Source: Branchiostoma lanceolatum (taxonomy: Eukaryota; Chordata; Leptocardii; Amphioxiformes; Branchiostomatidae). From it: 64,000 nucleotides of DNA. Shown piece by piece: positions 5,808-42,149 of the stretch. A program made the position numbers and the translations under genes. The stretch lies in assembly GCF_035083965.1 (NCBI RefSeq), contig NC_089725.1:30947925-31011924 (forward strand), written 5' to 3'. The notes beneath the pieces were generated by a model, which saw nothing but the letters and a program-made list of their open reading frames with translations, was not told where the DNA came from and made no database searches. The number at the start of each line of letters is the position of its first letter. The first letter of the stretch is position 1.

Positions 5808-8800
5808 ATGATGGCGTTCAGTTGTGATACATGTGACAAAACCTTCGCCCACAAACAATCACTCAATCGTCACAAAAAGGAGCACGACTCGACCGCACCC
5901 ATGCACGAGTGCGATTTCTGCGGCAAGAAATCTGCAAGACGCGACAACCTGCTACAACATCGGCACGTATCGTGCATAGGGACACCTCCCAAAGAACACC
6001 CCGTGCCGTCTACATCTCGCGGGAAGAAGAGGGATACTCCGGCAGACGGGGCCGGCCCCAGGGCGAAACGACGTCACGTTCAGCCCGGAGGGTTTGCCTT
6101 TAAGGAAGATCCGACGGACGTTCCGGAGAACCTAATTCCGCAAGACGACGACGTGGCCGTCCAGAATCTCTACCGACAAAAATGGCCGACCATTCGAACA
6201 CAGTTTAGGAGAAGTCAAAGGATCCAGGACACGTACAACTTTAGGCTGAACTCTGAAGACCCGACCGATCTGGCCGACCACGTGTGGTCCATCTTCAAGG
6301 ATCAACTAACCGTCTTTAAAATCAACTTATCGTTCGGGTTCTTTCTTCGGGACGGCGAAACTGGGGCACTGCGATACTTCCACCCATCAGAAAATAACAA
6401 CAAGTTTCTGCCAGCACCCGTCCTGGTAGAAAACGACGACGGCGTTAGGCGGTTCCTGGACAGCATCGAGGACGTCGACATCATGGAACAGGCACGCCAG
6501 CAGCGTCCCAACAGCAAGTCGGTCCTGCACAAGATGGTGAACGTGACGTTTTACGTCAACAAAATCAAAGACCATCCCATCGGTGCGCCCCAGACAGTGC
6601 AGGACTACATCAAAAAGAGTAGGTCAATCATCGCCCTACTGGGGGACAGACATGGCCCTTACACCGACAAGCTCTGCTTCTTCCGGTGCCTGGCACTCCA
6701 TCGCAACTACGACGACCGCACCAAACTGGAAAGACCGACAAAGAAGCTCTTCAGTAAGTACCTGGCGTGCGTGGGCAAGACGGCCAAACACTTCAAAGGC
6801 GTGTCCCTCAAAAACCTGGACGAGCTAGAAACTTTATTTGAGGTCGACATTTACGTCTATGCCCTTCAGCCCAGCGATGAAGAGGACGCAGGAGGCAACG
6901 ATTTCTTCGCGGAACTGGTGAGGCGTCCCCCGTCGACGTACAAGAACAAAATGTACCTGAATCTCTACAAGGAACATTTTTCTTACATCAAAAACTTCCA
7001 AACCTACGCAAAGTCCTTTGGTTGTCCGCGATGCGGAAAGAGGTGGCGGCGCAGCGGCAACTGCGAACGCCACATGCGCACGTGCGACGGTCAGGTGAAA
7101 AGGGAATACCCAGGGGGCGCCTACCGTCTACCACAGACCGTCTTCGAGAAACTGAAGGACGAAGGGATCGAAGTCCCCGAGGAAGATCAGTACTACCCTT
7201 ACCGCGCCTGCTTCGATATAGAATGCCTCCTGAAACCGCTGAACGGTGACAAGACCAACAAGCTCCAGTGGGAGGCCGTTCACGAATTGCTGAGCGTTAG
7301 CGTGGCCAGTAACGTGCCGGAATATGAACATCCAAAATGTTTCGTGTCCAAAGGCGACCCGACAAAAGTGGCCGAAACCTTGCTGGCCTACCTGCAGGAA
7401 GTCAGCCGTAAGGCGTACGCCCTTCTGTCGGACAAGTTCGCCTGGGTCGTGGAGAAGATGGAGGCCATCAGGGAAAATGACTTGAAGCGAGAAGAAGCGG
7501 AAGGAGAAGAAACAGAAGAAGAAGAAGCAAAGAGAGAAGGAGAAGCGGAGGAAGAAGAAGAAGCGGAGGAAGAAGAAACAGAAGGAGAAGAAACGGAGGG
7601 AGATGAAACGGAAGGAGAAGAAGGACAAGAAGCGGAAGGAGACGAGGTGGAAGGAGAAGAAGCGGAAGACGAAGAGATCAAACAACAGGGAAAACGCCGA
7701 AAAACGCATTACATGACCAAACTGTTGGCGGAATTAGACAAATACATGAGACAGTTGGTGGTCCTTAGCTTCAACGGTGGGAATTATGACCTCAACGCCA
7801 TCAAAAAGGTATTTCTCCCACCGTTGTTGCGATCGACCACTAAACTCCGGCCGATCAAAAGGAACAACACCTACATGTCAATAGAAACGGACGACCTCAA
7901 ATTCCTCGATCTCATCAACTACGTGGCCCCGGGCTTCTCCTATTCGACCCTGCTGAAGGCATACGACTGCCAGGAGACAAAGGGATTCTTCCCGTAAGTT
8001 GGCGTCTTTGTTTGTTTGTTTGTTTGTTTGCTAATTTGTTTGTTTGTTTGTTTGGTTGGTTGATTGATATGACCAAACGTGTTAGACCGAAAGGTGACGT
8101 CTTATTCGTCTCGTTGATATGACAGGTACGAATGGATGGACAGTTTGGAAAAGTTGGAGCACACACAGCTGCCACCACGAGCCGCCTTCCACAGCAACCT
8201 ACGACAGTCAGACATATCGGAGGACGAGTACCTGTACTGTCGGCGGGTATGGAAAGAGCAGGGCATGACGACCATGAGGAAATTCCTCATATGGTAGGTG
8301 TATGTCTTCTTGTAGTCTTATGGGTGTTGCCCCCTTTTTTTAACCCTTAGCACACTAAAGTAGCCGTTTGGCGACCCACTCTCTATTGGTCACAGAGTTA
8401 AGCAGAAGGGAGAAGGTCAACGATCTATAGAATATCGTACGCAGAAGATTGATTATTGTTTCGTCATTGTTTCTACAGGTACAACAACAAGGACGTGGTC
8501 CCGATGCTGGAAGTCGTGCAGAAGATGGCCGAATTCTACCGGAAGAAATCCATCGACATGTTTAAAGACGGAATAAGTGTGCCCGGCCTGACACTAAAGT
8601 ACCTTTTTATGAACTTGCCGAAGGACACCTACTACACGCTTGTAGACAACGAGGACGTGTACAGGTTGTTTAAAGACAACATAGTGGGGGGCCCCAGCAT
8701 TATCTTTCATAGGTACCACGAGAAGGGCAAGACTTACATCAGGGCCGACGAGATGAAAAAGTTGGGCAGGGAACCGAAACCTTGTCAAAAGGTGGTTGGC

Positions 8801-10495
8801 TACGACGCGAATGCGTTGTATCTCTGGGCCCTAACGCAGGACATGCCCACTGGCCATTACATTCGGCGGCGGGAACACACCGACTTCAACCGAGAATATT
8901 CTTCCTATCCCTGGGGACGCAATGCCGTTGACTGGTTAGACTGGGTGGCCCAAGAGCGGGACCTCGTCATTCGGCACAAATTGAATGACACGGAAAAGCG
9001 TATCGGTCCACGTCGAATTCCTGTGGACGGTTTCTGTTCGGCCACCGGGGAAATTTTTGAGTTTCACGGTTGTTATTGGCACGGCCACGACTGTTACTTG
9101 AACAGAGGCCGCAACTACAACAAACAACGCGGCAAATCATTCGAGACCTTGCGGGAAGAAACGGCAGAAAGGACCGAGTACCTGCAGGGGTGTAAGTATA
9201 AGGTCAACGAAATGTGGGAGTGCCAGTGGGAAAGTTTAACAAGAACCGACGACCGATTAGCGTCGTTTTTGGCCGGTCGCAAGACTCCCACTGAACATCT
9301 TCTTTCCATGACCCGTAAACGCCTCCTCAAGGCTGTTCGCTCGGGAGACTTGTTTGGAGTGGTAGAATGCGACATTGAGGTCCCCGCAGATCGCAAGTCG
9401 CACTTTGCCGAAATGCCCCCTATATTCAAGAATGTCGACATTTCCATCGACGACATCGGCGAATACATGAAGTCGTATGCCGAGGAGCATCACATTATGT
9501 CCAAACCCAGGCGGTCGCTGATTGGCAGTATGTTTGGTCGAAAGATCCTCTTGGCTACGCCCTTACTCAATTGGTACATTGATCACGGCTTGAAAGTCAC
9601 TCACATCTACCAAGTGTTGGAGTACAGACCCAAGCCGAGTTTCAAGTCTTTTGGGGACGCCGTCAGTGACGCGCGGCGCAAGGGCGACGAGGATCAAGCC
9701 AAGAAGATCATCGCCGATACCATGAAGCTGATCGGTAATTCGGGGTATGGTAAGACGGTTACCAACAAAGAAAGACAGACTGACGTCGAGTATTGCGAAG
9801 ACGTTGTGACAGCCACCCGAAAGATCAACACCCCGCGGTTTCGGCACCTGGTCGTGATCAACGACGATTTCATGGAAATCGAATCGTCAAAACGTAAGAT
9901 CAGATTTGATCTCCCCCTTCAAATTGGGTTCTTTGTGTACCAGTATGCAAAGCTCCGCATGCTGAAGTTTTATTACGATTTCATGCTTAAGTACGTGGAT
10001 AGGTCCGATTTCCAATATTGTGAAATGGACACGGACTCGGCGTACATCGCCATCTCTGCAGACAGACTGAAGGACGTTATCAAACCCAACAAGCGTGATG
10101 AGTACGAAAACGAGAAACATAAATGGTTCCCCCGCACGGACGACCCACAGCACGCGGCTTACGATAAGCGCACTCCCGGGTTGTTCAAGGAAGAATGGTC
10201 CGGGAACGGGATTGTCGGCCTGAGTAGTAAGACCTATTACTGCTTCGGTGGAGACGAGAAGAGCGCAGACAAGTTCAGTTGCAAGGGGGTGAACAAACGA
10301 TCCAACGACATCGACCACCACAAGTATCTGAACGTCCTGCTGACGAAGAAAAGTGGTCAGGGCATCAACAAAGGGTTTCGCATGCGCGAGAACGAAATGC
10401 ACACGTACACGCAAACCCGAGATGCCTTTTCATACTTCTATCCAAAAAGAAAGGTACAAAAGGACGGGGTAACCACTCTTCCACTGGATATCTAG
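5808..10495 (+). CDS. Protein-primed family B DNA polymerase with zinc fingers and OTU-like domain (copy 1)
   Basis: Three exons (5808-7993, 8126-8293, 8479-10495) give 1456 aa; both introns are GT-AG and join in frame. Domains: two C2H2-like fingers (residues 4-56); an OTU-like module with TDKLCFFRCLALH (Cys290) and LYKEHFSYI (His390); a further CxxC..HxxxC finger (406-426); exonuclease motifs FDIE (Asp470, Glu472), FNGGNYD (Asp661) and YNNKD (Tyr786, Asp790); a Glu-rich low-complexity insert (560-623); polymerase motifs YDANALYLW (Asp894), KLIGNSGYG (Lys1201) and DTDS (Asp1302, Asp1304); and a CYWHGH insertion (about 983-988). This order is that of protein-primed PolBs of Polintons, adintoviruses and linear plasmids, which copy linear DNA from a terminal protein. 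All catalytic residues are present. The second finger has Ser where Phe is usual. Intron 1 holds a GTTT microsatellite. The start is the ATGATGG 26 bp after a good acceptor. Confidence 0.9.
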
Positions 10496-11959: not shown

Positions 11960-12282
11960 AGAACAGTATTTCTAGCACGCAGGAATATTCGTGACTGCAT
12001 GTACCCTGGCCTTCTCACAAGCGTTCAGCACTGTGCCGCAACAGATCCACTTTTCGGTCGGCAAACGTCTCACACTTCAGATACTTTAAAATTATTAGGA
12101 CAAGAGTCTTGTGTTGTAACGTGCGTAAAAAGATTATTCTTTGGTTTCTCAATAGATACACAGGTGTCTAGTCCCTAGTTCTGATGGTCTTGCATACGTA
12201 GAAAAAATGTGTGTGCCATTTCAAACGGTCGTTAGCACGTTCGCCTAACACGTCATAGGTCCGCGGGGTTCTAAACACGCAG
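11960..12282 (+). repeat. Module shared with the small-gene cassettes
   Basis: ACCCTGGCCTTCTCACAAGCG, GTCTCACACTT, GTTGTAACGTGCGTAAAA, GCCATTTCAAACGGTCG and ACGTCATAGGTCC line up in order with 13560-13765, the leader of ORF-P. The first half is also an inverted homologue of the inner part of the B terminal repeat. The module ends where AGTAGTATGTAG begins. It ties the PolB block to the small-gene cassettes. Confidence 0.7.
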
Positions 12283-13463
12283 TAGTATGTAGTCGTATGT
12301 AGTCAGCAGGCTGGTATCCATTATTCAGGCTCGTTCAAAGGGCAAGGCTCGTCGACATTAGCTATGCTTTTTTCGTCCACCCTGGCCATTCGTCCTCAGA
12401 TTATTTCAATTTTCACAAGCTTAAACTTAAAGTCAGTTTTTATTCATAGTGTTAACATCTAGAAACATTATTCTTCCTCAGTTTAGCTTAAAATTCTCAA
12501 GTTTACAATGTAAGTTTCATGTTTCATTCATCCTTTATATCTGATTCAAAGAACTTGTTTAAATCCATGATGTGAAGACCTGTCAGGTATACACGTACGT
12601 TACCTTTGTAGCGAATCAAGACAACAACAGAAAAGACACTGCAGGGACATAGTGACAATGTTTCATTGGACTTTATTCAGTCAAGAGTGTATCAAACGCC
12701 GCCCGTCTGTATTAGTAGTATGTAGTCAGCAGGCTGGTATCCATTATTCAGGCTCGTTCAAAGGGCAAGGCTCGTCGACATTAGCTATGCTTTTTCGTCC
12801 ACCCTGGCAGTAGTAGTATGTAGTCAGCAGGCTGGTATCCATTATTCAGGCTCGTTCAAAGGGCAAGGCTCGTCGACATTAGCTATGCTTTTTCGTCCAC
12901 CCTGGCCATTCTTCCTCAGATTATTTCAATTTTCACAAGCCTAAACTTAAAGTCAGTTTTTATTCATAGTAGTATGTAGTCAGCAGGCTGGTATCCATTA
13001 TTCAGGCTCGTTCAAAGGGCAAGGCTCGTCGACATTAGCTATGCTTTTTTCGTCCACCCTGGCCATTCGTCCTCAGATTATTTCAATTTTCACAAGCCTA
13101 AACTTAAAGTCAGTTTTTATTCATAGTGTTAACATCTAGAAACATTATTCTTCCTCAGTTTAGCTTAAAATTCTCAAGTTTACAATGTAAGTTTCATGTT
13201 TCATTCATCCTTTATATCTGATTCAAAGAACTTGTTTAAATCCATGATGTGAAGACCTGTCAGGTATACACGTACGTTACCTTTGTAGCGAATCAAGACA
13301 ACAACAGAAAAGATACTGCAGGGACATAGTGACAATGTTTCATTGGACTTTATTCAGTCAAGAGTGTATCAAACGCCGCCCATCTGTATTAGTAGTATGT
13401 AGTCAGCAGGCTGGTATCCATTGTAGTCAGCAGGCTGGTATCCATTGTAGTCAGCAGGCTGGT
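12283..13463. repeat. Array of A-type termini (constant end to the left)
   Basis: Five to six units each begin AGTAGTATGTAGTCAGCAGG (for example 12714, 12812 and 13391) and run for variable lengths through the ~100 bp terminal repeat, a spacer and the end of the RING 3' UTR (GGACTTTATTCAGTC). Left ends are constant and right ends are variable. The two shortest units, near 13430, are only ~25 bp. No gene is present. Confidence 0.8.
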
Positions 13464-13935
13464 AGTAGTAGTATGTAGTAAGCAGGCTGCTATCCATTTT
13501 TCAGGCTCGGTCAATAGTCAGGGCGCATTACGGCGGCATTAGCTTTGCTTTGTTCGTCTACCCTGGCCTTCTCATAAGCGTTCTTGTCCTTTTGTTGTAA
13601 CGTGCGTAAAATAGATGACAATTCAATTTCCATCTAGATATACACGTGTCTATTACAAGTCCAAAGTTCCGATAGAAACTTAGAAAACATGTGTGCGCCA
13701 TTTCAAACGGTCGCTAAACGTTCGCCTAAGACGTCATAGGTCCCCGGGGCTCTAAACACGAAGAAAAAAATGACCCTTTGCAATAGCTCAGCATCTTCGT
13801 TTGCCGACACTTGCCTGCAAACCATATTCCATACGGATCTATTCACAACTTATCTGGTTCTGATATCTACTCACATATAACATTCTCCAGAAAGGTACCG
13901 TAGTCATAGACACAGAACTGCCAAAGCGTATTACA

Positions 13936-14187
13936 CTGGATCAAGTGTCGCCAGTAGTACACCTAAAGGGTCTACTGCACGCTGTCGTGGAGATCTTAGG
14001 CGGGACCCCGATTGTGGGTCTTGGAGAGCTCTGGCCTTCTCATAAGTTTTGCATAAGCTTGATAGAATCGTGTAATTTCAAAGAGTATATATATGAAAAC
14101 CGAGAGATAAGAGATGATAAAGCCGTAACGGTTATGTTGTGGTTGCCGTCAAAAAAAGGCCCGTCTAAAAATAGTAAAACTGGTTAG
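13936..14187 (+). CDS. ORF-P, 83-aa hypothetical with CTG at the start position (cassette 0)
   Basis: Not recognised. The frame reads LDQVSPVVHLKGLL..., has a Gly/Pro-rich middle (ILGGTPIVGLGELWP), an acidic-aromatic stretch (FKEYIYENREIRDD) and a basic tail (SKKGPSKNSKTG). Its leader is homologous to that of the NLS gene, and the NLS initiator ATGGATAAAGTT lines up with CTGGATCAAGTG here, so CTG occupies the start position. No in-frame ATG lies upstream. It may use non-AUG initiation, be an exon, or be a decayed gene. All nine copies in the window keep the frame. No polyadenylation signal follows before the NLS promoter. Confidence 0.45.
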   Translation: MDQVSPVVHLKGLLHAVVEILGGTPIVGLGELWPSHKFCISLIESCNFKEYIYENREIRDDKAVTVMLWLPSKKGPSKNSKTG

Positions 14188-14240
14188 ATCTAGTTTTCTA
14201 TAGATCCGGTTAGAACGAGTTTCTACCCAAAGCTTCTCGA

Positions 14241-14310
14241 CCAATCAAAATGTAAGGAACTTGAATCCTGATATTTACATAAATTTGCATATCCTGAGCC
14301 TTATAAATAA
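14241..14310 (+). promoter_or_regulatory. CCAAT-octamer-TATA promoter of NLS/RING (cassette 0)
   Basis: CCAAT at 14241-14245, a perfect octamer ATTTGCAT at 14283-14290, and TATAAATA at 14302-14309 inside the near-palindrome GCCTTATAAATAAGGC. Start of transcription is expected near 14335, leaving a ~200 nt leader before the NLS ATG. The same three boxes precede each NLS and NLS' gene in the window. Confidence 0.75.
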
Positions 14311-14454
14311 GGCTGCAATGGTAATCTTACATTACTGACGGTCCTTCATTGCGAATACATGTATATGGTGAGGTCCATAATCGAACTTCGTGTTGCCGAC
14401 ACCTGACTACATAGCATATTTCATACGGATCTATCCACAACTTCTCTAGTTGTG

Positions 14455-14476
14455 ATATCCACACCCGTGCGGATAT
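14455..14476. promoter_or_regulatory. 22-bp palindrome in the NLS leader
   Basis: ATATCC..CAC..GTG..GGATAT, about 65 bp upstream of the ATG. In NLS' copies the centre is CACGCGTG, a better palindrome. It could be a protein-binding site or an RNA hairpin. Confidence 0.4.
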
Positions 14477-14539
14477 TAACACATAACCTTCTCAACAAGG
14501 GTACTGAAGTCACAGACACAACTACCATAGCACATTACT

Positions 14540-14788
14540 ATGGATAAAGTTGTTAAAGCTTCAAAACGAAAGCGAATGCCTCCATACGATAGGGATTGTG
14601 AGCCGCCAGCCAAGAGGCGTCGACTAAGATTGAATGTCGGACCAAAGACTAATCCAAACATGAGCTTTGATATGATCACAGAGAACAACATCGTACCTGA
14701 AGATGAATCGATGGACATCGATGGGGACTGCTTCGAACAAACAATGGATCAAGTTGTTGAAGCTATCAGACGACTTAAATTAGATTAA
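14540..14788 (+). CDS. NLS protein, 82 aa, probably nuclear (cassette 0)
   Basis: Not assignable to a family. Residues 6-12 (KASKRKR) and 22-31 (PPAKRRRLRL) form an obvious bipartite nuclear localisation signal. The middle is polar and acidic (PEDESMDIDGD). The C-terminal 14 residues, MDQVVEAIRRLKLD, echo the N-terminus MDKVVKASKRK at both protein and DNA level, an internal duplication. The start is the only ATG downstream of a clear TATA promoter. It is the first gene of its transcription unit; RING follows after 187 nt with no separate promoter seen. A small nuclear regulator or DNA-associated protein is plausible. Confidence 0.6.
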   Translation: MDKVVKASKRKRMPPYDRDCEPPAKRRRLRLNVGPKTNPNMSFDMITENNIVPEDESMDIDGDCFEQTMDQVVEAIRRLKLD

Positions 14789-14975
14789 TATACAGGGCGG
14801 TGACTTAAGCCTAGAAATGCACCCAATCTGTACATTTTGCAACGGTTGATATCACATCAGGCACAATATTGTCATTTCTAAATTTCTAAACGCTCCGACA
14901 CTTTTTCCTATTAGAGTAAAAAAAAAAACGTCTGGCGAAAATGTCATTGCTTGCTATTGACGGACTCAAAGAGAA

Positions 14976-15248
14976 ATGCAGAACTCATCCACGCCCGACT
15001 CATTCGCCAACCACACAGATGTGTCTGACGGTGAGATCTGCCCCATCTGCCTCGACGAAATCGCATTCCGGGACGAAGTTTGGAACCACTGTCCACATGC
15101 AACAGCTCTGAATACCCACTCTTGCCACAAAGACTGCATAGTGGAGTGGTGCCGTACGTCCCCGACATGCCCTACCTGCAGGGTAAGAATAGAGTGTACC
15201 GACGGCGAACATGGCTGTCCTCGGGAAAACTTTGACTTCTACTTCTGA
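14976..15248 (+). CDS. RING-H2 finger protein, 90 aa (cassette 0)
   Basis: A zinc-binding RING, typical of E3 ubiquitin ligases, which recruit an E2 enzyme to targets. Ligands read C22-x2-C25, C39-x-H41, H51-x2-C54 and C65-x2-C68; the core EICPICLDEI and CIVEWCRTSPTCPTCR are canonical. Nine residues separate H41 from H51, where RING-H2 usually has two, so the second loop is enlarged; Cys50 or His48 could be alternative ligands. The N-terminal 20 residues are Ser/Thr/Asp-rich, the C-terminus is Phe/Tyr-rich, and there is no membrane segment. The protein is identical in all five full copies. Small RING proteins are common in large DNA viruses, where they alter host ubiquitination; that role is inference here. 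Confidence 0.8.
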   Translation: MQNSSTPDSFANHTDVSDGEICPICLDEIAFRDEVWNHCPHATALNTHSCHKDCIVEWCRTSPTCPTCRVRIECTDGEHGCPRENFDFYF

Positions 15249-15295
15249 TAGAGTGGCAAGCGAAAAGAGTGCAGGAGTCGTCATATCCACCACAG

Positions 15296-15613
15296 ATGAT
15301 ACTACGTTGCACAGGTAGACGCCGTTCACGCCAGAGTTCGTGTGTCTGCATGGACGAAATCCGAGTGCGGGCAGGCAAAAGTTGCGCCCGCGTACCGTAT
15401 ATGAAAGTAAGTTCAGACACCTTCAATTGAAACTTTCAGTCTGAATGTGAATTCGACCGCAAAGATGTGGCAGTCTTGTTCCATACAATGGAGAAAGGTA
15501 TCGATGCAACGAGGAAAAAAAGCGCGGTGGGTGGTATGGATATAGACGTTTGCTATAAACTCGGGCACAGAAAATACAGACGGGCGGCGTTTGATACACT
15601 CTTGACTGAATAA
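15296..15613 (+). pseudogene. ORF-Q, interrupted (cassette 0)
   Basis: Homologue of the open ~105-aa ORF-Q of the minus-strand cassettes, 47 nt after RING. Here codon 45 is TGA (15428-15430) where the minus-strand copies have TTA. The stop lies in a 33-nt stretch (15407-15439) that starts GTAAGT and ends TTTCAG; that is too short for an ordinary intron. The protein is basic at the start and end and not recognised. Confidence 0.45.
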
Positions 15614-15614
15614 A
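15609..15614 (+). terminator. Polyadenylation signal of the NLS/RING unit
   Basis: AATAAA overlaps the ORF-Q terminal TAA. It is the only such signal between RING and the terminal-repeat spacer's AT-rich part, and it is present in cassettes 0, 1, 4 and 5. Confidence 0.6.
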
Positions 15615-15898
15615 GTCCAATGAAACATTGTCACTATGTCCCTGCAGTGTCTTTTCTGTTGTTGTCTTGATTCGCTACAAAGGTAACGTACGTGTATACC
15701 TGATAGGTCTTCACATCATGGATTTAAACAAGTTCTTTGAATCAGATATAAAGGATGAATGAAACATGAAACTTACATTGTAAACTTGAGAATTTTAAGC
15801 TAAACTGAGGAATAATAATGTTTCTAGATGTTAACACTATGAATAAAAACTGACTTTAAGTTTAAGCTTGTGAAAATTGAAATAATCTGAGGAAGAAT
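15615..15898. other. Spacer between RING unit and A terminus
   Basis: AT-rich noncoding DNA with GATTTAAACAAGTTCTTTGAA and ATGAATAAAAACTGAC phrases. The same spacer recurs in the A-type arrays, truncated at different points. No gene. Confidence 0.6.
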
Positions 15899-15994
15899 GG
15901 CCAGGGTGGACGAAAAAGCATAGCTAATGTCGACGAGCCTTGCCCTTTGAACGAGCCTGAATAATGGATACCAGCCTGCTGACTACATACTACT

Positions 15995-18900
15995 GTTAAC
16001 ACTTTGAATAAAAACTGACTTTAAGTTTAGGCTTGTGAAAATTGAAATAATCTGAGGAAGAATGGCCAGGGTGGACGAAAAAGCATAACTAATGTCGACG
16101 AGCCTTGCCCTTTGAACGAGCCTAAATATAGGTACCATCCTGCTGACTACATACTACTGCAGGGTAAGAATAGAGTGTACCGACGGCGAACATGACTGTC
16201 CTCGGGAAAACTTTGACTTCTACTTCTGATAGAGTGGCAAGCGAAAAGAGTGCAGGAGTCGTCATATCCACCACAGATGATACTGCGTTGCACAGGTAGA
16301 CGCCGTTCACGCCAGAGTTCGTGTGTCTGCATGGACGAAATCCGAGTGCGGGCAGGCAAAAGTTGCGCCCGCGTACCGTATATGAAAGTAGGTTCAGACA
16401 CCTTCAATTGAAACTTTCAGTCTGAATGTGAATTCGACCGCAAAGATGTGGCAGTCTTGTTCCATACAATGGAGAAAGGTATCGATGCAACGAGGAAAAA
16501 AAGCGCGGTGGGTGGTATGGATATAGACGTTTGCTATAAACTCGGGCACAGAAAATACAGACGGGCGGCGTTTGATACACTCTTGACTGAATAAAGTCCA
16601 ATGAAACATATTCACTATGTCCCTGCAGTGTCTTTTCTGTTGTTGTCTTGATTCGCTACAAAGGTAACGTACGTGTATACCTGATAGGTCTTCACATCAT
16701 GGATTTAAACAAGTTCTTTGAATCAGATATAAAGGATGAATGAAACATGAAACTTACATTGTAAACTTGAGAATTTTAAGCTAAACTGAGGAAGAATAAT
16801 GTTTCTAGATGTTAACACTATGAATAAAAACTGACTTTAAGTTTAAGCTTGTGAAAATTGAAATAATCTGAGGAAGAATGGCCAGGGTGGACGAAAAAGC
16901 ATAGCTAATGTCGACGAGCCTTGCCCTTTGAACGAGCCTGAATAATGGATACCAGCCTGCTGACTACATACTACTGTTAACACTATGAATAAAAACTGAC
17001 TTTAAGTTTAGGCTTGTGAAAATTGAAATAATCTGAGGAAGAATGGCCAGGGTGGACGAAAAAGCATAACTAATGTCGACGAGCCTTGCCCTTTGAACGA
17101 GCCTAAATATAGGTACCATCCTGCTGACTACATACTACTGCAGGGTAAGAATAGAGTGTACCGACGGCGAACATGACTGTCCTCGGGAAAACTTTGACTT
17201 CTACTTCTGATAGAGTGGCAAGCGAAAAGAGTGCAGGAGTCGTCATATCCACCACAGATGATACTGCGTTGCACAGGTAGACGCCGTTCACGCCAGAGTT
17301 CGTGTGTCTGCATGGACGAAATCCGAGTGCGGGCAGGCAAAAGTTGCGCCCGCGTACCGTATATGAAAGTAGGTTCAGACACCTTCAATTGAAACTTTCA
17401 GTCTGAATGTGAATTCGACCGCAAAGATGTGGCAGTCTTGTTCCATACAATGGAGAAAGGTATCGATGCAACGAGGAAAAAAAGCGCGGTGGGTGGTATG
17501 GATATAGACGTTTGGTATAAACTCGGGCACAGAAAATACAGACGGGCGGCGTTTGATACACTCTTGACTGAATAAAGTCCAATGAAACATTGTCACTATG
17601 TCCCTGCAGTGTCTTTTCTGTTGTTGTCTTGATTCGCTACAAAGGTAACGTACGTGTATACCTGACAGGTCTTCACATCATGGATTTAAACAAGTTCTTT
17701 GAATCAGATAGAAAGGATGAATGAAACATGAAACTTACATTGTAAACTTGAGAATTTTAAGCTAAACTGAGGAAGAATAATGTTTCTAGATGTTAACACT
17801 ATGAATAAAAACTGACTTTAAGTTTAAGCTTGTGAAAATTGAAATAATCTGAGGAAGAATGGCCAGGGTGGACGAAAAAGCATAGCTAATGTCGACGAGC
17901 CTTGCCCTTTGAACGAGCCTGAATAATGGATACCAGCCTGCTGACTACATACTACTAATACAGACGGGCGGCGTTTGATACACTCTTGACTGAATAAAGT
18001 CCAATGAAACATTGTCACTATGTCCCTGCAGTGTCTTTTCTGTTGTTGTCTTGATTCGCTACAAAGGTAACGTACGTGTATACCTGATAGGTCTTCACAT
18101 CATGGATTTAAACAAGTTCTTTGAATCAGATATAAAGGATGAATGAAACATGAAACTTACATTGTAAACTTGAGAATTTTGAGCTAAACTGAGGAAGAAT
18201 AATGTTTCTAGATGTTAACACTATGAATAAAAACTGACTTTAAGTTTAGGCTTGTGAAAATTGAAATAATCTGAGGAAGAATGGCCAGGGTGGACGAAAA
18301 AGCATAGCTAATGTCGACGAGCCTTGCCCTTTGAACGAGCCTGAATAATGGATACCAGCCTGCTGACTACATACTACTACTGTTAACACTATGAATAAAA
18401 ACTGACTTTAAGTTTAGGCTTGTGAAAATTGAAATAATCTGAGGAAGAATGGCCAGGGTGGACGAAAAAGCATAACTAATGTCGACGAGCCTTGCCCTTT
18501 GAACGAGCCTAAATATAGGTACCAGCCTGCTGACTACAATGGATACCAGCCTGCTGACTACATACTACTAATACAGATGGGCGGCGTTTGATACACTCTT
18601 GACTGAATAAAGTCCAATGAAACATTGTCACTATGTCCCTGCAGTATCTTTTCTGTTGTTGTCTTGATTCGCTACAAAGGTAACGTACGTGTATACCTGA
18701 CAGGTCTTCACATCATGGATTTAAACAAGTTCTTTGAATCAGATATAAAGGATGAATGAAACATGAAACTTACATTGTAAACTTGAGAATTTTAAGCTAA
18801 ACTGAGGAAGAATAATGTTTCTAGATGTTAACACTATGAATAAAAACTGACTTTAAGTTTAGGCTTGTGAAAATTGAAATAATCTGAGGACGAATGGCCA

Positions 18901-19148
18901 GGGTGGACGAAAAAAGCATAGCTAATGTCGACGAGCCTTGCCCTTTGAACGAGCCTGAATAATGGATACCAGCCTGCTGACTACATACTACTATGAATAA
19001 AAACTGACTTTAAATTTAGGCTTGTGAAAATTGAAATAATCTGAGGAAGAATGGCCAGGGTGGACGAAAAAGCATAGCTAATGTCGACGAGCCTTGCCCT
19101 TTGAACGAGCCTGAATAATGGATACCAGCCTGCTGACTACATACTACT
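15995..19148. repeat. Array of A-type termini (constant end to the right)
   Basis: Units end in CTGCTGACTACATACTACT and begin at varying internal points: GTTAACACT (15995), GCAGGGTAAG inside RING (16159 and 17140, a 981-bp higher-order period), AATACAGACGGG in the RING 3' UTR (~17957) and ATGAATAAAAAC (~18996). Two units carry the last ~23 RING codons plus a stop-containing ORF-Q (16159-16594 and 17140-17575). These are fragments, not genes. Confidence 0.85.
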
Positions 19149-22100
19149 TCTTCAAACGTTTGTAAAGTGTGAGACGTTTGCCGACAGAAAAGTGCATCTG
19201 TTGCTTATGAGAAGACCAGGGTAGACGAACAAAGCAAAGCTAATGCCGCCGTAATGCGCCCTGACTATTGACCGGGCCTGAAAAATGGATAGCAACCTGC
19301 TCACTACATACTACTGTTGCTTATGAGAAGACCAGGGTAGACGAACAAAGCAAAGCTAATGCCGCCGTAATGCGCCCTGACTATTGACCGGGCCTGAAAA
19401 ATGGATAGCAACCTGCTCACTACATACTACTGTACTACTACGACAATTCAAGTTTATGTTTTAACTCACTGCCTGGATGTCTAAGCTTTATCGGAAAAGT
19501 TACTCGAGCAACTGGTCACTTCCGGTTTATGTTTTATGCGTTACGTTACAACAAAAGATGCTTGTCCAAATGCTTCAAACGTTTGTAAAGTGTGAGACGT
19601 TTGCCGACAGAAAAGTGCATCTGTTGCTTATGAGAAGACCAGGGTAGACGAAGAAAGCAAAGCTAATGCCGCCGTAATGCGCCCTGACTATTGACCGAGC
19701 CTGAAAAATGGATAGCAGCCTGCTCACTACATACTACTGTACTACTACGACAATTCAAGTTTATGTTTTAACTCACTGCCTGGATGTCTAAGCTTTATCG
19801 GAAAAGTTACTCGAGCAACTGGTCACTTCCGGTTTATGTTTTATGCGTTACGTTACAACAAAAGATGCTTGTCCAAATGCTTCAAACGTTTGTAAAGTGT
19901 GAGACGTTTGCCGACAGAAAAGTGCATCTGTTGCTTATGAGAAGACCAGGGTAGACGAACAAAGCAAAGCTAATGCCGCCGTAATGCGCCCTGACTATTG
20001 ACCGGGCCTGAAAAATGGATAGCAACCTGCTCACTACATACTACTGTTGCTTATGAGAAGACCAGGGTAGACGAACAAAGCAAAGCTAATGCCGCCGTAA
20101 TGCGCCCTGACTATTGACCGAGCCTGAAAAATGGATAGCAACCTGCTCACTACATACTACTTTGCTTTATCGGAAAAGTTACTCGAGCAACTGGTCACTT
20201 CCGGTTTATGTTTTATGCGTTACGTTACAACAAAAGATGCTTGTCCAAATGCTTCAAACGTTTGTAAAGTGTGAGACGTTTGCCGACAGAAAAGTGCATC
20301 TGTTGCTTATGGGAAGACCAGGGTAGACGAACAAAGCAAAGCTAATGCCGCCGTAATGCGCCCTGACTATTGACCGGGCCTGAAAAATGGATAGCAACCT
20401 GCTCACTACATACTACTGTTGCTTATGAGAAGACCAGGGTAGACGAACAAAGCAAAGCTAATGCCGCCGTAATGCGCCCTGACTATTGACCGAGCCTGAA
20501 AAATGGATAGCAACCTGCTCACTACATACTACTGTACTACTACGACAATTCAAGTTTATGTTTTAACTCACTGCCTGGATGTCTAAGCTTTATCGGAAAA
20601 GTTACTCGAGCAACTGGTCACTTCCGGTTTATGTTTTATGCGTTACGTTACAACAAAAGATGCTTGTCCAAATGCTTCAAACGTTTGTAAAGTGTGAGAC
20701 GTTTGCCGACAGAAAAGTGCATCTGTTGCTTATGAGAAGACCAGGGTAGACGAACAAAGCAAAGCTAATGCCGCCGTAATGCGCCCTGACTATTGACCGG
20801 GCCTGAAAAATGGATAGCAACCTGCTCACTACATACTACTGTTGCTTATGAGAAGACCAGGGTAGACGAACAAAGCAAAGCTAATGCCGCCGTAATGCGC
20901 CCTGACTATTGACCGGGCCTGAAAAATGGATAGCAACCTGCTCACTACATACTACTGTACTACTACGACAATTCAAGTTTATGTTTTAACTCACTGCCTG
21001 GATGTCTAAGCTTTATCGGAAAAGTTACTCGAGCAACTGGTCACTTCCGGTTTATGTTTTATGCGTTACGTTACAACAAAAGATGCTTGTCCAAATGCTT
21101 CAAACGTTTGTAAAGTGTGAGACGTTTGCCGACAGAAAAGTGCATCTGTTGCTTATGAGAAGACCAGGGTAGACGAAGAAAGCAAAGCTAATGCCGCCGT
21201 AATGCGCCCTGACTATTGACCGAGCCTGAAAAATGGATAGCAGCCTGCTCACTACATACTACTGTTGCTTATGAGAAGACCAGGGTAGACGAACAAAGCA
21301 AAGCTAATGCCGCCGTAATGCGCCCTGACTATTGACCGGGCCTGAAAAATGGATAGCAACCTGCTCACTACATACTACTGTACTACTACGACAATTCAAG
21401 TTTATGTTTTAACTCACTGCCTGGATGTCTAAGCTTTATCGGAAAAGTTACTCGAGCAACTGGTCACTTCCGGTTTATGTTTTATGCGTTACGTTACAAC
21501 AAAAGATGCTTGTCCAAATGCTTCAAACGTTTGTAAAGTGTGAGACGTTTGCCGACAGAAAAGTGCATCTGTTGCTTATGAGAAGACCAGGGTAGACGAA
21601 CAAAGCAAAGTTAATGCCGCCGTAATGCGCCCTGACTATTGACCGGGCCTGAAAAATGGATAGCAACCTGCTCACTACATACTACTGTACTACTACGACA
21701 ATTCAAGTTTATGTTTTAACTCACTGCCTGGATGTCTAAGCTTTATCGGAAAAGTTACTCGAGCAACTGGTCACTTCCGGTTTATGTTTTATGCGTTACG
21801 TTACAACAAAAGATGCTTGTCCAAATGCTTCAAACGTTTGTAAAGTGTGAGACGTTTGCCGACAGAAAAGTGCATCTGTTGCTTATGAGAAGACCAGGGT
21901 AGACGAACAAAGCAAAGCTAATGCCGCCGTAATGCGCCCTGACTATTGACCGGGCCTGAAAAATGGATAGCAACCTGCTCACTACATACTACTGTTGCTT
22001 ATGAGAAGACCAGGGTAGACGAACAAAGCAAAGCTAATGCCGCCGTAATGCGCCCTGACTATTGACCGGGCCTGAAAAATGGATAGCAACCTGCTCACTA

Positions 22101-22971
22101 CATACTACTGTACTACTACGACAATTCAAGTTTATGTTTTAAATCACTGCCTGGATGTCTAAGCTTTATCGGAAAAGTTACTCGAGCAACTGGTCACTTC
22201 CGGTTTATGTTTTATGCGTTACGTTACAACAAAAGATGCTTGTCCAAATGCTTCAAACGTTTGTAAAGTGTGAGACGTTTGCCGACAGAAAAGTGCATCT
22301 TTTGCTTATGAGAAGACCAGGGTAGACGAAGAAAGCAAAGCTAATGCCGCCGTAATGCGCCCTGACTATTGACCGAGCCTGAAAAATGGATAGCAGCCTG
22401 CTCACTACATACTACTACAGAAAAGTGCATCTGTTGCTTATGAGAAGACCAGGGTAGACGAAGAAAGCAAAGCTAATGCCGCCGTAATGCGCCCTGACTA
22501 TTGACCGAGCCTGAAAAATGGATAGCAGCCTGCTCACTACATACTACTGTTGCTTATGAGAAGACCAGGGTAGACGAACAAAGCAAAGCTAATGCCGCCG
22601 TAATGCGCCCTGACTATTGACCGGGCCTGAAAAATGGATAGCAACCTGCTCACTACATACTACTGTACTACTACGACAATTCAAGTTTATGTTTTAACTC
22701 ACTGCCTGGATGTCTAAGCTTTATCGGAAAAGTTACTCGAGCAACTGGTCACTTCCGGTTTATGTTTTATGCGTTACGTTACAACAAAAGATGCTTGTCC
22801 AAATGCTTCAAACGTTTGTAAAGTGTGAGACGTTTGCCGACAGAAAAGTGCATCTGTTGCTTATGAGAAGACCAGGGTAGACGAAGAAAGCAAAGCTAAT
22901 GCCGCCGTAATGCGCCCTGACTATTGACCGAGCCTGAAAAATGGATAGCAGCCTGCTCACTACATACTACT
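19149..22971. repeat. Array of B-type termini
   Basis: About 20 units end in GATAGCARCCTGCTCACTAC plus ATACTACT. Full units (~310 bp) begin GTACTACTACGACAATTCAAG; short ones (~115 bp) begin GTTGCTTATGAGAAGACC; others start at ACAGAAAAGTGC or TTGCTTTATCGG. B and A terminal repeats are homologous (CCAGGGTRGACGAAnAAAGCAnAGCTAATG). No credible gene. Confidence 0.85.
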
Positions 22972-36221: not shown

Positions 36222-36653
36222 AGTAGTATGTAGTCAGCAGGATGGTATCCATTATTCCGGCTCGTTCAAAGGGCAAGACTCGTCGACATTAGCTATGCTT
36301 TTTCGTCCACCCTGGCCATTCTTCCTCAGATTATTTCAATTTTCACAAGCTTAAACTTAAAGTCAGTTTTTATTCATAGTGTTAACATCTAGAAACATTA
36401 TTCTTCCTCAGTTTAGCTTAAAATTCTCAAGTTTACAATGTAAGTTTCATGTTTCATTCATCCTTTATATCTGATTCAAAGAACTTGTTTAAATCCATGA
36501 TGTGAAGACCTATCAGGTATACACGTACGTTACCTTTGTAGCGAATCAAGACAACAACAGAAAAGACACTGCAGGGACATAGTGACAATGTTTCATTGGA
36601 CTTTATTCAGTCAAGAGTGTATCAAACGCCGCCCGTCTGTATTAGTAGTATGT
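36222..36653. repeat. A-type terminus, truncated unit
   Basis: AGTAGTATGTAGTCAGCAGG, terminal repeat, spacer and the end of the RING 3' UTR (TTTATT at 36602-36607), then CTGTATT joins the next AGTAGTATGTAG at 36654. Confidence 0.8.
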
Positions 36654-37023
36654 AGTCAGCAGGCTGGTATCCATTATTCAGGCTCGTTCAAAGGGCAAGG
36701 CTCGTCGACATTAGTTATGCTTTTTCGTCCACCCTGGCCATTCTTCCTCAGATTATTTCAATTTTCACAAGCTTAAACTTAAAGTCAGTTTTTATTCATA
36801 GTGTTAACATCTAGAAACATTATTCTTCCTCAGTTTAGCTTAAAATTCTCAAGTTTACAATGTAAGTTTCATGTTTCATTCATCCTTTCTATCTGATTCA
36901 AAGAACTTGTTTAAATCCATGATGTGAAGACCTATCAGGTATACACGTACGTTACCTTTGTAGCGAATCAAGACAACAACAGAAAAGACACTGCAGGGAC
37001 ATAGTGACAATGTTTCATTGGAC

Positions 37024-37029
37024 TTTATT
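37024..37029 (-). terminator. Polyadenylation signal, RING unit, cassette 1
   Basis: TTTATT on the plus strand (AATAAA on the minus), overlapping the ORF-Q stop. Confidence 0.6.
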
Positions 37030-37342
37030 CAGTCAAGAGTGTATCAAACGCCGCCCGTCTGTATTTTCTGTGCCCGAGTTTATAGCAAACGTCTATATCC
37101 ATACCACCCACCGCGCTTTTTTTCCTCGTTGCATCGATACCTTTCTCCATTGTATGGAACAAGACTGCCACATCTTTGCGGTCGAATTCACATTCAGACT
37201 GAAAGTTTAAATTGAAGGTGTCTGAACCTACTTTCATATACGGTACGCGTGCGCAACTTTTGCCTGCCCGCACTCGGATTTCGTCCATGCAGACACACGA
37301 ACTCTGGCGTGAACGGCGTCTACCTGTGCAACGTAGTATCAT
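37025..37342 (-). CDS. ORF-Q, 105-aa hypothetical (cassette 1)
   Basis: Starts with ATGATACTACG, 47 nt after the RING stop, and ends in a TAA inside the polyadenylation signal. The N-terminus is basic and Cys-rich (RCTGRRRSRQSSCVC), the middle polar (ECEFDRKDVAVLF), the end basic (YKLGHRKYRRAAFDTL). No known domain recognised. The frame is open in all four minus-strand copies and closed by TGA in the plus-strand copies. It could be a real distal gene of a bicistronic RING mRNA or part of its 3' UTR. Confidence 0.4.
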   Translation of the reverse strand: MILRCTGRRRSRQSSCVCMDEIRVRAGKSCARVPYMKVGSDTFNLNFQSECEFDRKDVAVLFHTMEKGIDATRKKSAVGGMDIDVCYKLGHRKYRRAAFDTLLTE

Positions 37343-37389
37343 CTGTGGTGGATATGACGACTCCTGCACTCTTTTCGCTTGCCACTCTA

Positions 37390-37662
37390 TCAGAAGTAGA
37401 AGTCAAAGTTTTCCCGAGGACAGCCATGTTCGCCGTCGGTACACTCTATTCTTACCCTGCAGGTAGGGCATGTCGGGGACGTACGGCACCACTCCACTAT
37501 GCAGTCTTTGTGGCAAGAGTGGGTATTCAGAGCTGTTGCATGTGGACAGTGGTTCCAAACTTCGTCCCGGAATGCGATTTCGTCGAGGCAGATGGGGCAG
37601 ATCTCACCGTCAGACACATCTGTGTGGTTGGCGAATGAGTCGGGCGTGGATGAGTTCTGCAT
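37390..37662 (-). CDS. RING-H2 finger protein, 90 aa (cassette 1)
   Basis: Same protein as the plus-strand copy at 14976, all eight zinc ligands kept. Its usual promoter is now 2.6 kb farther away because of the LINE. Confidence 0.8.
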   Translation of the reverse strand: MQNSSTPDSFANHTDVSDGEICPICLDEIAFRDEVWNHCPHATALNTHSCHKDCIVEWCRTSPTCPTCRVRIECTDGEHGCPRENFDFYF

Positions 37663-37847
37663 TTCTCTTTGAGTCCGTCAATAGCAAGCAATGACATTTT
37701 CGCCAGACGTTTTTTTTTACTCTAATAGGAAAAAGTGTCGGAGCGTTTAGAAATTTAGAAATGACAATATTGTGCCTGATGTGATATCAACCGTTGCAAA
37801 ATGTACAGATTGGGTGCATTTCTAGGCTTAAGTCACCGCCCTGTATA

Positions 37848-38096
37848 TTAATCTAATTTAAGTCGTCTGATAGCTTCAACAACTTGATCCATTGTTTGTT
37901 CGAAGCAGTCCCCATCGATGTCCATCGATTCATCTTCAGGTACGATGTTGTTCTCTGTGATCATATCAAAGCTCATGTTTGGATTAGTCTTTGGTCCGAC
38001 ATTCAATCTTAGTCGACGCCTCTTGGCTGGCGGCTCACAATCCCTATCGTATGGAGGCATTCGCTTTCGTTTTGAAGCTTTAACAACTTTATCCAT
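37848..38096 (-). CDS. NLS protein, 82 aa (cassette 1)
   Basis: Identical in protein to cassette 0 (DRD at 17-19, FDM in the middle). The LINE insertion begins 7 bp upstream of the ATG, leaving the coding region whole but detached from its leader and promoter. Confidence 0.55.
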   Translation of the reverse strand: MDKVVKASKRKRMPPYDRDCEPPAKRRRLRLNVGPKTNPNMSFDMITENNIVPEDESMDIDGDCFEQTMDQVVEAIRRLKLD

Positions 38097-38103
38097 AGTA
38101 ATG

Positions 38104-40536
38104 CCCAAATGGCATGAAATTTTTTACTGTAACGCTGTTGATGATGCATGTTATAAGCTGGTAGATCTTATATTTGAAGCCAAAACCAAATGTGTTCCCC
38201 ATAAGGACATTCTTATAAGACCCAGAGATAAACCATGGATGTCTCCCAGGATTAGATCGTTGATGCGTCGGCGAGACAAGCTACATAGAAATGCTAAAGT
38301 TTCGAACAGTACCACACTGTGGTCTGCATACCGTAATGTCAGAAATAAACTAGTACGCGAAATATCACTTGCTAAGTCTAACTACAACAGCCGTCTCGCT
38401 GACTCCTTGACGTCTTCTCCTTGTTCTAGCAAGAAATGGTGGCACATTGTTAAATCTTTCTATTGTAGCAAAGTGAGTTCTAATATTCCTCCCTTAAGGT
38501 CAGGTCACTTGTATGTAACTGATTCTTGTGAAAAGGCAACCATGTTCAACAATTTTTTCACTACTCAGGCCTCTGTAGATGACACCAAGGCAAGCCTCCC
38601 ACAACTTGATTTTCTCACTGATGTCCGATTTTCAGAATGTTTAACCACACCTGCCGAGATTGAACTCTATGTATCTTCTCTAGATATATCCAAAGCGTGT
38701 GGTCACGATAATGTTGATAATCGCTTTCTTAAACTCATATGCCCTTACATATCTGATAAGATCGCTTACGTTTTCAATTTGTCATTTTGCCATGGTGTCT
38801 TTCCAAAGGCCTGGAAACGGGCAAATGTGGTTCCAATTTTCAAAAAGGGAGAACCAGATGATGTATCTAACTATCGCCCCGTATCTCTGTTGCCCTGTTT
38901 GTCCAAAATTTTAGAAAAAATTGTATCCAAACACTTGTATAACCATTTGATGTCTCAAAATTTACTATATTCCCTCCAGTCGGGCTTCATCCGCGGAGAT
39001 TCGACAGTAAATCAACTCATTTGTATTACTGATAAAATCTTTAATGCTCTAGATTCCAACAAAGAAGTCAGAGCGGTTTACTTAGACTTTTCTAGAGCAT
39101 TTGACAAAGTCTGGCATAAAGGACTTATTTTCAAGCTGCAGAGAAACGGGGTCGACGGCCCAATCTTAAATTGGTTCCATAGCTACCTCTCTGACAGAGA
39201 GCAAAGAGTTGTAATTGATGGTCAATGTTCGGATTGGAGTTATGTTGGCGCAGGTGTACCTCAGGGTTCAGTTTTAGGGCCTCTCTTATTCCTTGTCTTC
39301 ATTAATGACATGGTGGACGGTCTAGTTACATGCCCCTTTTTATTTGCTGACGATAGTTCATTATTGGACATTGTGGAAGATCCTAACGTTACAGCTGATC
39401 GACTCAATACTGATCTTAGGAAGATATCATTTTGGTCTTCAACATGGCTTATGAACCTAAACCCTTTAAAGACTGAAGAAATGTGTTTTTCTAAGAAATC
39501 AAATCCTCCCGACCACCCCCCTCTTCTTCTTGATAATTGTGTTATTAAATCAGTCAAAACCCACAAGCATATAGGGACTTTTCTTACGTCCACCTTGTCA
39601 TGGGAAACACAAATTTCTTATATGATTGGCAAGGCGTCCAAACGAGTGTCCACTCTTAACAAATTGAAATTCAGATTATCACGAACAGTACTTGATGTTA
39701 TTTATAAATCTTTTATTCGTCCTCTCCTTGAATATGCTGACATTATTTGGCATGGATGTACTTTATATGATTCCCAGCGATTAGAACGTGTCCAATACGA
39801 ATGCGCGCTTGCAGTCTCAGGGGCTGTAAGAGGGTCTTCGTATTCTTCGCTACTTTCTGAATTAGGTTGGGAAAAACTTTCGGATCGACGTCACGTTCAC
39901 TCTCTGATCATGTTCTACAAAATTGTTCATGGCCATACTCGCCAGTATCTTAAGGATTTGATCCCTCCTGAAGTTTCCATTTCTACTTCTTATAATCTTC
40001 GTAACAAACTTAATCTAAGGATACCGCTCTGCTCTACAACTCGATATCAAAAGTCTTTTATTCCTTATGCAACGCATCATTGGAACGGTCTTGGTATATC
40101 TGTTCGATCATTACATCTTTCGTTGTTTAAAAAACATCTAGTCAAATTAGAACGTCCCTCTTTCTATTCACATTTTAGTCATGGCCCCCGGTACACTTGC
40201 GCCCTCCTCACACGCATTCGCACCGGCACGTGCAGTCTTAACCTAAGTTTATTTACACGCAACTTAGCAACAAGTCCAGCCTGCACTTGCGGATGTCGAA
40301 GCGAAAGCGTTGTCCATTATCTTTTGTACTGCCCTATATACAGTCAACAAAGACTCAACCTTCTGGGCAACCTACGGAACCTTTTAGCCCATATTCTTGA
40401 TATCGATACTTTGTCTGATCAAGCCTTCATTTATTTATTATTAAGAGGCTCATCCTTTGTTTCATATGATTTCAACTGTAACATTTTAGGCTTGACTCAG
40501 CACTATATTTTGACAAGCAGACGTTTTAAAACTTAG
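38104..40536 (+). CDS. Reverse transcriptase ORF of the LINE (5'-truncated)
   Basis: About 810 codons without a stop. Before the RT is a linker with KPWMSPRIRSLMRRRDKL, typical of Jockey-superfamily elements. RT motifs follow: NYRPVSLLPCLSKILEK, AVYLDFSRAFDKVWH, GVPQGSVLGPLLFLVFIND and the catalytic FADDSSLL. A thumb region (HKHIGTFL, LNKLKFRL, FIRPLLEYADIIW) and a C-terminal knuckle (CTCGCRSESVVHYLLYCPIY) complete it. The intact frame suggests a young insertion. The frame continues upstream to 37918 only by reading the NLS gene antisense, so the first ~62 codons of that longer ORF are not part of the element. The N-terminal apurinic endonuclease is absent. Confidence 0.88.
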   Translation, partial: PKWHEIFYCNAVDDACYKLVDLIFEAKTKCVPHKDILIRPRDKPWMSPRIRSLMRRRDKLHRNAKVSNSTTLWSAYRNVRNKLVREISLAKSNYNSRLADSLTSSPCSSKKWWHIVKSFYCSKVSSNIPPLRSGHLYVTDSCEKATMFNNFFTTQASVDDTKASLPQLDFLTDVRFSECLTTPAEIELYVSSLDISKACGHDNVDNRFLKLICPYISDKIAYVFNLSFCHGVFPKAWKRANVVPIFKKGEPDDVSNYRPVSLLPCLSKILEKIVSKHLYNHLMSQNLLYSLQSGFIRGDSTVNQLICITDKIFNALDSNKEVRAVYLDFSRAFDKVWHKGLIFKLQRNGVDGPILNWFHSYLSDREQRVVIDGQCSDWSYVGAGVPQGSVLGPLLFLVFINDMVDGLVTCPFLFADDSSLLDIVEDPNVTADRLNTDLRKISFWSSTWLMNLNPLKTEEMCFSKKSNPPDHPPLLLDNCVIKSVKTHKHIGTFLTSTLSWETQISYMIGKASKRVSTLNKLKFRLSRTVLDVIYKSFIRPLLEYADIIWHGCTLYDSQRLERVQYECALAVSGAVRGSSYSSLLSELGWEKLSDRRHVHSLIMFYKIVHGHTRQYLKDLIPPEVSISTSYNLRNKLNLRIPLCSTTRYQKSFIPYATHHWNGLGISVRSLHLSLFKKHLVKLERPSFYSHFSHGPRYTCALLTRIRTGTCSLNLSLFTRNLATSPACTCGCRSESVVHYLLYCPIYSQQRLNLLGNLRNLLAHILDIDTLSDQAFIYLLLRGSSFVSYDFNCNILGLTQHYILTSRRFKT

Positions 40537-40740
40537 TTCAGGTATATTGATATATTCATTGTTTGTTTGTTAGTTTGTTTGTATTGGACGACCCAATTGC
40601 TGTTTATTATTGTTATTGTACTTGTCTATGTAAGTTGTAATTGTTTTTCCAGAGGTGATGTTTAATATTAGCTTTAGCTAGAGTGCATCACCTCTGTGTC
40701 CTGTATATTTTTCTGTTGTTTAATAAAAAAAAAAAAAAAA
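38104..40740 (+). mobile_element. 5'-truncated non-LTR retrotransposon (CR1/Jockey-like)
   Basis: Inserted in the NLS leader. The short repeat AATG is found at 38100-38103 and again at 40741-40744 after a poly(A) of ~18, a likely target-site duplication that the A-run makes imprecise. Other cassettes show the empty site CATAGTAATGTGCTATGG. AATAAA overlaps the tail near 40721. The 5' part, including the endonuclease, is missing. Confidence 0.9.
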
Positions 40741-40968
40741 AATGTGCTATGGTAGTTGTGTCTGTGACTTCAGTACCCTTGTTGAGAAGGTTATGTGTTA
40801 ATATCCGCACGGGTGTGGATATCACAACTAGAGAAGTTGTGGATAGATCCGTATGAAATATGCTATGTAGTCAGGTGTCGGCAACACGAAGTTCGATTAT
40901 GGACCTCACCATATACATGTATTCGCAATGAAGGACCGTCAGTAATGTAAGATTACCATTGCAGCCTT

Positions 40969-41036
40969 ATTTATAAGGCTCAGGATATGCAAATTTATGT
41001 AAATATCAGGATTCAAGTTCCTTACATTTTGATTGG
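40969..41036 (-). promoter_or_regulatory. CCAAT-octamer-TATA promoter, cassette 1 NLS
   Basis: TATA complement 40969-40976, ATGCAAAT 40987-40994, ATTGG 41032-41036. Its transcripts would run into the LINE in antisense. Confidence 0.7.
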
Positions 41037-41089
41037 TCGAGAAGCTTTGGGTAGAAACTCGTTCTAACCGGATCTATAGAAAACTAGAT

Positions 41090-41341
41090 CTAACCAGTTT
41101 TACTATTTTTAGACGGGCCTTTTTTTGACGGCAACCACAACATAACCGTTACGGCTTTATCATCTCTTATCTCTCGGTTTTCATATATATACTCTTTGAA
41201 ATTACACGATTCTATCAAGCTTATGCAAAACTTATGAGAAGGCCAGAGCTCTCCAAGACCCACAATCGGGGTCCCGCCTAAGATCTCCACGACAGCGTGC
41301 AGTAGACCCTTTAGGTGTACTACTGGCGACACTTGATCCAG
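41090..41341 (-). CDS. ORF-P (cassette 1)
   Basis: 83 codons from the CTG at 41341-41339. Protein the same as in cassette 0 (SLIESC form). Confidence 0.45.
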   Translation of the reverse strand: MDQVSPVVHLKGLLHAVVEILGGTPIVGLGELWPSHKFCISLIESCNFKEYIYENREIRDDKAVTVMLWLPSKKGPSKNSKTG

Positions 41342-42132: not shown

Positions 42133-42149
42133 CGTGTCACAAAATTTTA

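Follow-up and report, generated by a model that had tools for sequence, protein, structure and literature searches.

Short cassettes with Maverick-like tips and outward-facing arrays of partial units in Branchiostoma lanceolatum

What kind of molecule could have left, in an animal chromosome, small gene cassettes surrounded by partial copies that nearly all break at the same terminal motif? This question is raised by a stretch of 64,000 nucleotides from Branchiostoma lanceolatum (NC_089725.1, positions 30,947,925 to 31,011,924 of the forward strand; hereafter the window), in which two complete cassettes, A and B, carry small genes between AGTAGT-type tips in the neighbourhood of a gene for a DNA polymerase, PolB. 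An original prediction, made from the letters alone, had described such cassettes as polymerase-less units with inverted ends and had taken them for satellite or defective forms of a linear replicon. The explanation that we favour, which we regard as an evenly balanced proposition, is that the cassettes are short non-autonomous linear elements of the Maverick/Polinton type and that the arrays around them arose through template switches at a free end of the DNA.

The terminus itself is well defined. Sequences within one mismatch of AGTAGTATGTAG occur 60 times in the window against 0.32 expected, with a maximum of 3 among 100 shuffles, which bears out the predicted sharing of one terminus by inverted ends of ~100 bp. 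Cassette A begins with (AGT)3ATGTAG at 13464 and finishes with ...CTACATACTACT at 15994; its two ends, aligned with gaps scored as differences, are the same in 43 of the first 47 columns and in 81 of the first 100. The predicted second copy (36654-41803) exists as cassette B, although its true bounds are 36644 and 41804. It lies in the opposite orientation, its right tip is CTACATACTACA with 1 mismatch, its other side carries (AGT)2, and its ends are alike in 86 of 96 aligned columns. The two ends of a cassette, here called types L and R, are related yet non-identical. The commonest end motif of vertebrate Mavericks/Polintons is (AGT)2//(ACT)2; where these elements are intact, their genes lack introns, their inverted ends measure 46-1447 bp and the target-site duplication is 6 bp long (PMC8097293). 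The tips of cassette A, (AGT)3...(ACT)2, and those of cassette B, with 1 mismatch on one side, are of this type, and both pairs of inverted ends fall within this size range. The 20-mer of the terminus had 0 matches in viral_contigs. Cassette B is split by a 2637-bp insert (38104-40740), which finishes with a run of A and looks like a retrotransposon without long terminal repeats; the reverse-transcriptase frame (37918-40536) begins within cassette B sequence. The uninterrupted insertion site is visible in cassette A, and ~4 bp are duplicated at the insertion.

The two complete cassettes are not free-standing: both are embedded in arrays of truncated end units, which the original prediction had missed. 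A partial unit starts at an internal position, which varies, and extends as far as one tip. Outside the cassettes there are 56 tips; every one of them points outward, and the facing direction switches at complete cassettes only. To the right of cassette A, 26 of 26 tips face right, first in R-type units (to 19148) and then in L-type units (to 22971); this change of type at 19148 comes without a change of direction. The stretch 18520-19151 is an inverted copy of 12809-13440 (99.7%). Sequence resembling cassette A makes up 83% of 12281-22971 and 65% of 36222-64000, and is scarce elsewhere (1.6% of 1-12280 and 1.5% of 22972-36221). Beyond 40741, repeated blocks are 99.6-99.9% identical over 3.4-4.8 kb, so that recent amplification adds to the picture; identity is 97.7-98.9% when longer stretches, in which array lengths differ, are aligned. 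A palindrome of 338 bp (22980-23317; 86.6% self-complementary), resembling a miniature inverted-repeat transposable element, lies right beside the outermost tip at 22971.

At nearly every junction between units one side is the tip, while the other side is widely variable. Among 83 unit starts, 51 have (AGT)2AT, 4 have AGTCGTAT, 4 have TGTAGTAT, 5 have a single AGT and 19 are trimmed, and a single junction may have either 2 or 3 copies of AGT. The 60 tips occur in 21 distinct contexts, or ~19 once one-base variants are merged. Microhomology was scored by hand at the 14 untrimmed junctions with an identified parent, leaving out the host-flank junction, the junction of unknown parent, the inside-tip junction at 12291 and trimmed or altered tips; it amounted to 13 bases in total against 5.0 expected (P ~0.009). 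The base before the tip is C in 11 of 17 distinct junctions (hand count; P ~2e-4). The recurrent breakpoint at the tip and the uniform orientation are both as expected of a molecule that physically ended there. A simple tandem duplication would not pick the tip as breakpoint repeatedly, and we rejected a random concatemer, in which joined random fragments would mix orientations.

Under the favoured explanation, linear DNA with (AGT)2 tips and inverted ends would bring small regulatory genes of its own (RING, NLS-like and PC4-like, described below) and would rely on a protein-primed PolB provided in trans, which would start replication at the tips. We infer that growth of the arrays took place at free ends. 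A nascent strand would run off the template tip, finishing 3' ...ACTACT, would pair anew, through a homology of 0-3 bases, with some internal position in an L or R end of the same or another copy, and would be copied out to a tip again, so that each cycle adds one outward-facing unit. A switch from R- to L-type units in an unchanged direction, as at 19148, would be a natural outcome, since the tip is shared by both ends. Ordinary recombination would later have multiplied the blocks, once these had become attached to the chromosome or had been retained in it. The locus might even preserve, like a fossil, how a linear and probably protein-primed satellite DNA replicated its ends in an animal, that is, a small extrachromosomal replicon with Maverick-type tips and its own regulatory genes (again RING, NLS-like and PC4-like) yet no polymerase, grown outward by repeated template switching from the tip; this fuller version we put forward tentatively, and think rather doubtful.

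The open reading frames (ORFs) of the cassettes, listed with the other features in Table 1, were judged only in copies spanning at least 95% of each ORF. In such near-full-length copies the ORF resembling a nuclear localization signal (NLS) is open in 9 of 9, the RING ORF in 5 of 5 and the 107-aa ORF in 4 of 7; ORF-83 is likewise open in 9 of 9, yet has no ATG at the shared start. Few differences separate the copies of these small genes, fewer than a judgement on selection would need. The RING ORF matches zf-RING_2 in Pfam (1.5e-7), and in viral_contigs one stretch scored as its relative, for which no locus was returned. The NLS-like ORF, ORF-83 and the PC4-like frames were compared with family libraries, and the first PC4-like frame also with PDB sequences, where the best match is a PC4 chain (E 0.021). 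The tandem PC4-like frames (Pfam E 2.6e-5 and 3.4e-4, under the curated cut-off) take the place of the RING and 107-aa ORFs in a variant cassette, and this module recurs at 48205, 55221 and 60584. By eye, the leader of the NLS-like gene (14392-14560) is apparently repeated upstream, at 13804-13960 before ORF-83, which suggests a gene duplication within the cassette. As predicted, no polymerase ORF was found within the cassettes, be it between the tips of A or of B, and Pfam scans of the cassette ORFs gave no integrase, ATPase, protease or capsid family.

The neighbouring PolB gene looks protein-primed, as had been claimed, judging from its relatives, which match DNA_pol_B_2, and from an OTU-like fold N-terminal to the polymerase; a DNA_pol_B_2-type polymerase with an OTU domain is the predicted make-up. 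Its closest relatives are from Branchiostoma lanceolatum (72%) and B. belcheri (71%), and no relative was found in viral_contigs with either a single-sequence or an alignment query. A fold search of BFVD listed a densovirus DNA polymerase at rank 12 (E 0.021); the 4 BFVD matches at E <= 0.001 were not used, all having a root-mean-square deviation >20 and none being named DNA polymerase. The protein also carries C2H2 fingers at its N-terminus and an inserted weak match to Vsr endonuclease. A second copy (29711-34428), in which the first frame ends early, differs by 12 nonsynonymous and 5 synonymous codons in one stretch and by 7 and 6 in another, so no strong constraint is visible since duplication. 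A segment of ~11 kb with PolB and the array start occurs twice (2013-12808 and 24737-36738), its pieces being 87-98% identical. Two occurrences of AGTAGTAT, at 11196 and 11320, were considered as a tip on the PolB side and rejected, the following bases being unlike an L end.

Table 1 Features of the window (positions in the window; L and R, types of cassette end)
Feature	Position	Strand	Remarks
PolB gene, protein-primed type (predicted), OTU-like region	5808..10495	+	exons 5808-7993, 8126-8293, 8479-10495
Diverged (~77%) L-subterminal copy, cassette positions 92-296	12002..12282	+	between PolB and array
Left array at A, truncated R-type end units	12281..13463	+	6/6 tips face left
Cassette A, complete	13464..15994	+	L-type end 13464-13580, R-type end up to 15994
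ORF-83, 83-codon open frame	13936..14187	+	shared start without ATG
NLS-like basic ORF, 82 aa	14540..14788	+	TATAAATA upstream at 14302
RING-H2 ORF, 90 aa	14976..15248	+	AATAAA downstream at 15609
Right array at A, R-type units, internal point to tip	15995..19148	-	all face right
Right array at A, L-type units, 116/307/423-bp periods	19149..22971	-	all face right; last tip abuts non-element DNA
Left R-type unit at B	36222..36643	+	1/1 tip facing left
Cassette B, complete, split by reverse-transcriptase insert 38104-40740	36644..41804	-
Right array at B, L-ended units, repeated blocks ~5.4-7 kb	41805..64000	-	23/23 tips face right
Alternative right-hand module, two overlapping PC4-like frames (ssDNA-binding/coactivator type)	42150..42796	-	below Pfam cut-off
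107-aa ORF, open copy	45714..46037	-	cassette A version broken by stop; no homologue found

A number of observations weigh against an origin of the arrays from free Maverick-type ends. The same junctions recur in many units, so the 56 outside tips are not independent; independent events are far fewer, recombination having spread the junctions. Fillers of 1-2 bases, present at 3 of the 14 scored junctions, and the 19 of 83 trimmed unit starts are both expected from end joining as well. Flanking hexamers match in neither of the 2 complete cassettes, both of which lie inside arrays where the flanks are not insertion sites, and among the tips there is no matching left-hand counterpart to the only one that adjoins non-element DNA (22971|CTAAAA). 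Protein database searches gave no relatives of the RING protein or of the 107-aa ORF. The window PolB itself falls under the Pfam threshold for DNA_pol_B_2, a Foldseek search of PDB gave it no match at E <= 0.001, and it has two canonical introns, whereas intact vertebrate Mavericks are intronless. On the PolB side the outermost of the 60 tips is at 12281 and 1-12280 contains none, so that PolB has no pair of tips enclosing it; the L-like stretch next to the gene is oriented the wrong way. Six-frame Pfam scans for Maverick core genes, covering 1-5807 and 10496-12280 to the exclusion of 22972-29710 and the arrays, gave no integrase, ATPase, protease or capsid. With introns in the gene and no tip on its far side, the membership of PolB in the cassette element is unproven, as is that of the cassettes among Mavericks. 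The original proposal of a satellite or defective linear replicon is thus partly supported: the tips, the inverted ends, the type of the PolB next door and the failure to find a polymerase ORF in the cassettes speak for it, whereas the introns of PolB, its position outside the tips and the unmatched hexamers do not; that such molecules were extrachromosomal and protein-primed is something we infer.

The main rival keeps the Maverick-like ends and has an integrase join a tip to an internal site of its own element, producing circles of internal-point-to-tip units that were amplified and re-inserted. Such auto-integration would likewise produce head-to-tail units that stop exactly at the tip on one side and at varying positions on the other, and a target preference might give the C that so often precedes the tip. 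We nevertheless think it unlikely, given that the AGT number varies at one junction, that some tips are trimmed and fillers are present, that no R/L breakpoint pair 6 bp apart stands out in the unit map, and that no integrase was found in the scanned stretches (1-5807, 10496-12280). Alternatively, AGTAGT might adorn an unrelated cut-and-paste or foldback transposon by chance, its inverted ends having grown through unequal crossing over and the aberrant repair of gaps. Foldback-type elements do have tandem repeats within long inverted ends, gap repair does exploit microhomology, and no PolB ORF was found inside the cassettes. Tandem duplication, however, predicts random breakpoints on both sides, whereas here the tip nearly always forms one of the two sides; the motif at the tip agrees with that of Mavericks, and a protein-primed-type PolB adjoins, which leaves this account distinctly unlikely in our judgement. 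A Helitron was rejected outright: Helitrons have 5' TC and 3' CTRR ends and no inverted ends, and the cassettes end in AGTAGT/ACTACT with inverted repeats.

It seems improbable to us that pieces of a different linear DNA virus, bidna- or adeno-like, became integrated and were linked end to end in the process. Small genes with a TATA box and poly-A signal, RING and PC4-like modules and linear-type ends would suit such a virus, but random end joining would give tip-to-tip and break-to-break joins in mixed orientation, not 56 of 56 outside tips facing outward, and the DNA between the tips yielded neither a capsid gene nor a replication gene. Least credible to us, and very improbable, is mere satellite DNA with a captured dead transposon end, its orientation and exact tips being due to concerted evolution. 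The near-identity of the blocks beyond 40741 (99.6-99.9% over 3.4-4.8 kb), hence their recent amplification, and the many recurrences of identical junctions accord with it; it leaves unexplained how more than 12 different internal breakpoints came to meet the tip and why facing reverses at complete cassettes.

Should template switching at free Maverick-type ends be the right explanation, the locus would matter in two ways. The replication of Mavericks has been deduced from polymerase type and end motifs, and arrays holding dozens of end-copying products would reveal end copying, AGT slippage and the sites of strand switching. Polymerase-less Maverick satellites that carry genes in animals would, if true, parallel virophage/helper pairs.

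Long inverted ends of tandem repeats recall foldback and other DNA transposons with expanded terminal inverted repeats, from which the tip motif and the tip-exact junctions set the cassettes apart. In adenovirus, a duplicated trinucleotide at the ends serves jumping-back protein-primed initiation (PMC4974454), and the direct repeat at the cassette tip, which the original prediction read as a terminus of the protein-priming type, is suited to jumping-back or sliding-back as in adenovirus/phi29-type genomes. Unlike those genomes, the cassettes are chromosomal, and no terminal protein was identified in them. Reiterated terminal sequences are also said to occur in adenovirus variants (Ad3 work of the 1980s), although our literature search found no such paper. 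Polinton-type protein-primed PolB with a vOTU domain, for which endonuclease insertions are reported (PMC11071308, preprint), resembles the window PolB in its predicted OTU-like fold, DNA_pol_B_2 relatives and weak Vsr-endonuclease insertion; the latter differs in its N-terminal C2H2 fingers, its spliceosomal introns and the absence of element boundaries among our findings. From vertebrate Mavericks the cassettes differ in size (2.5 kb versus 12.7-24.6 kb), in having no core gene inside, in their unmatched hexamers, in the introns of the neighbouring PolB and in being embedded in arrays of end units. We therefore do not file them as Mavericks, there being no core genes, PolB included, inside them and no target-site duplication shown, and regard them as possible non-autonomous Maverick derivatives. 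The likenesses are the (AGT)2//(ACT)2 tips, the ~100-bp inverted ends, the nearby gene of protein-primed PolB type, and accessory ORFs, which flank the core in known Mavericks/Polintons (PMC8097293); the cassettes look like Maverick ends and probably work like them.
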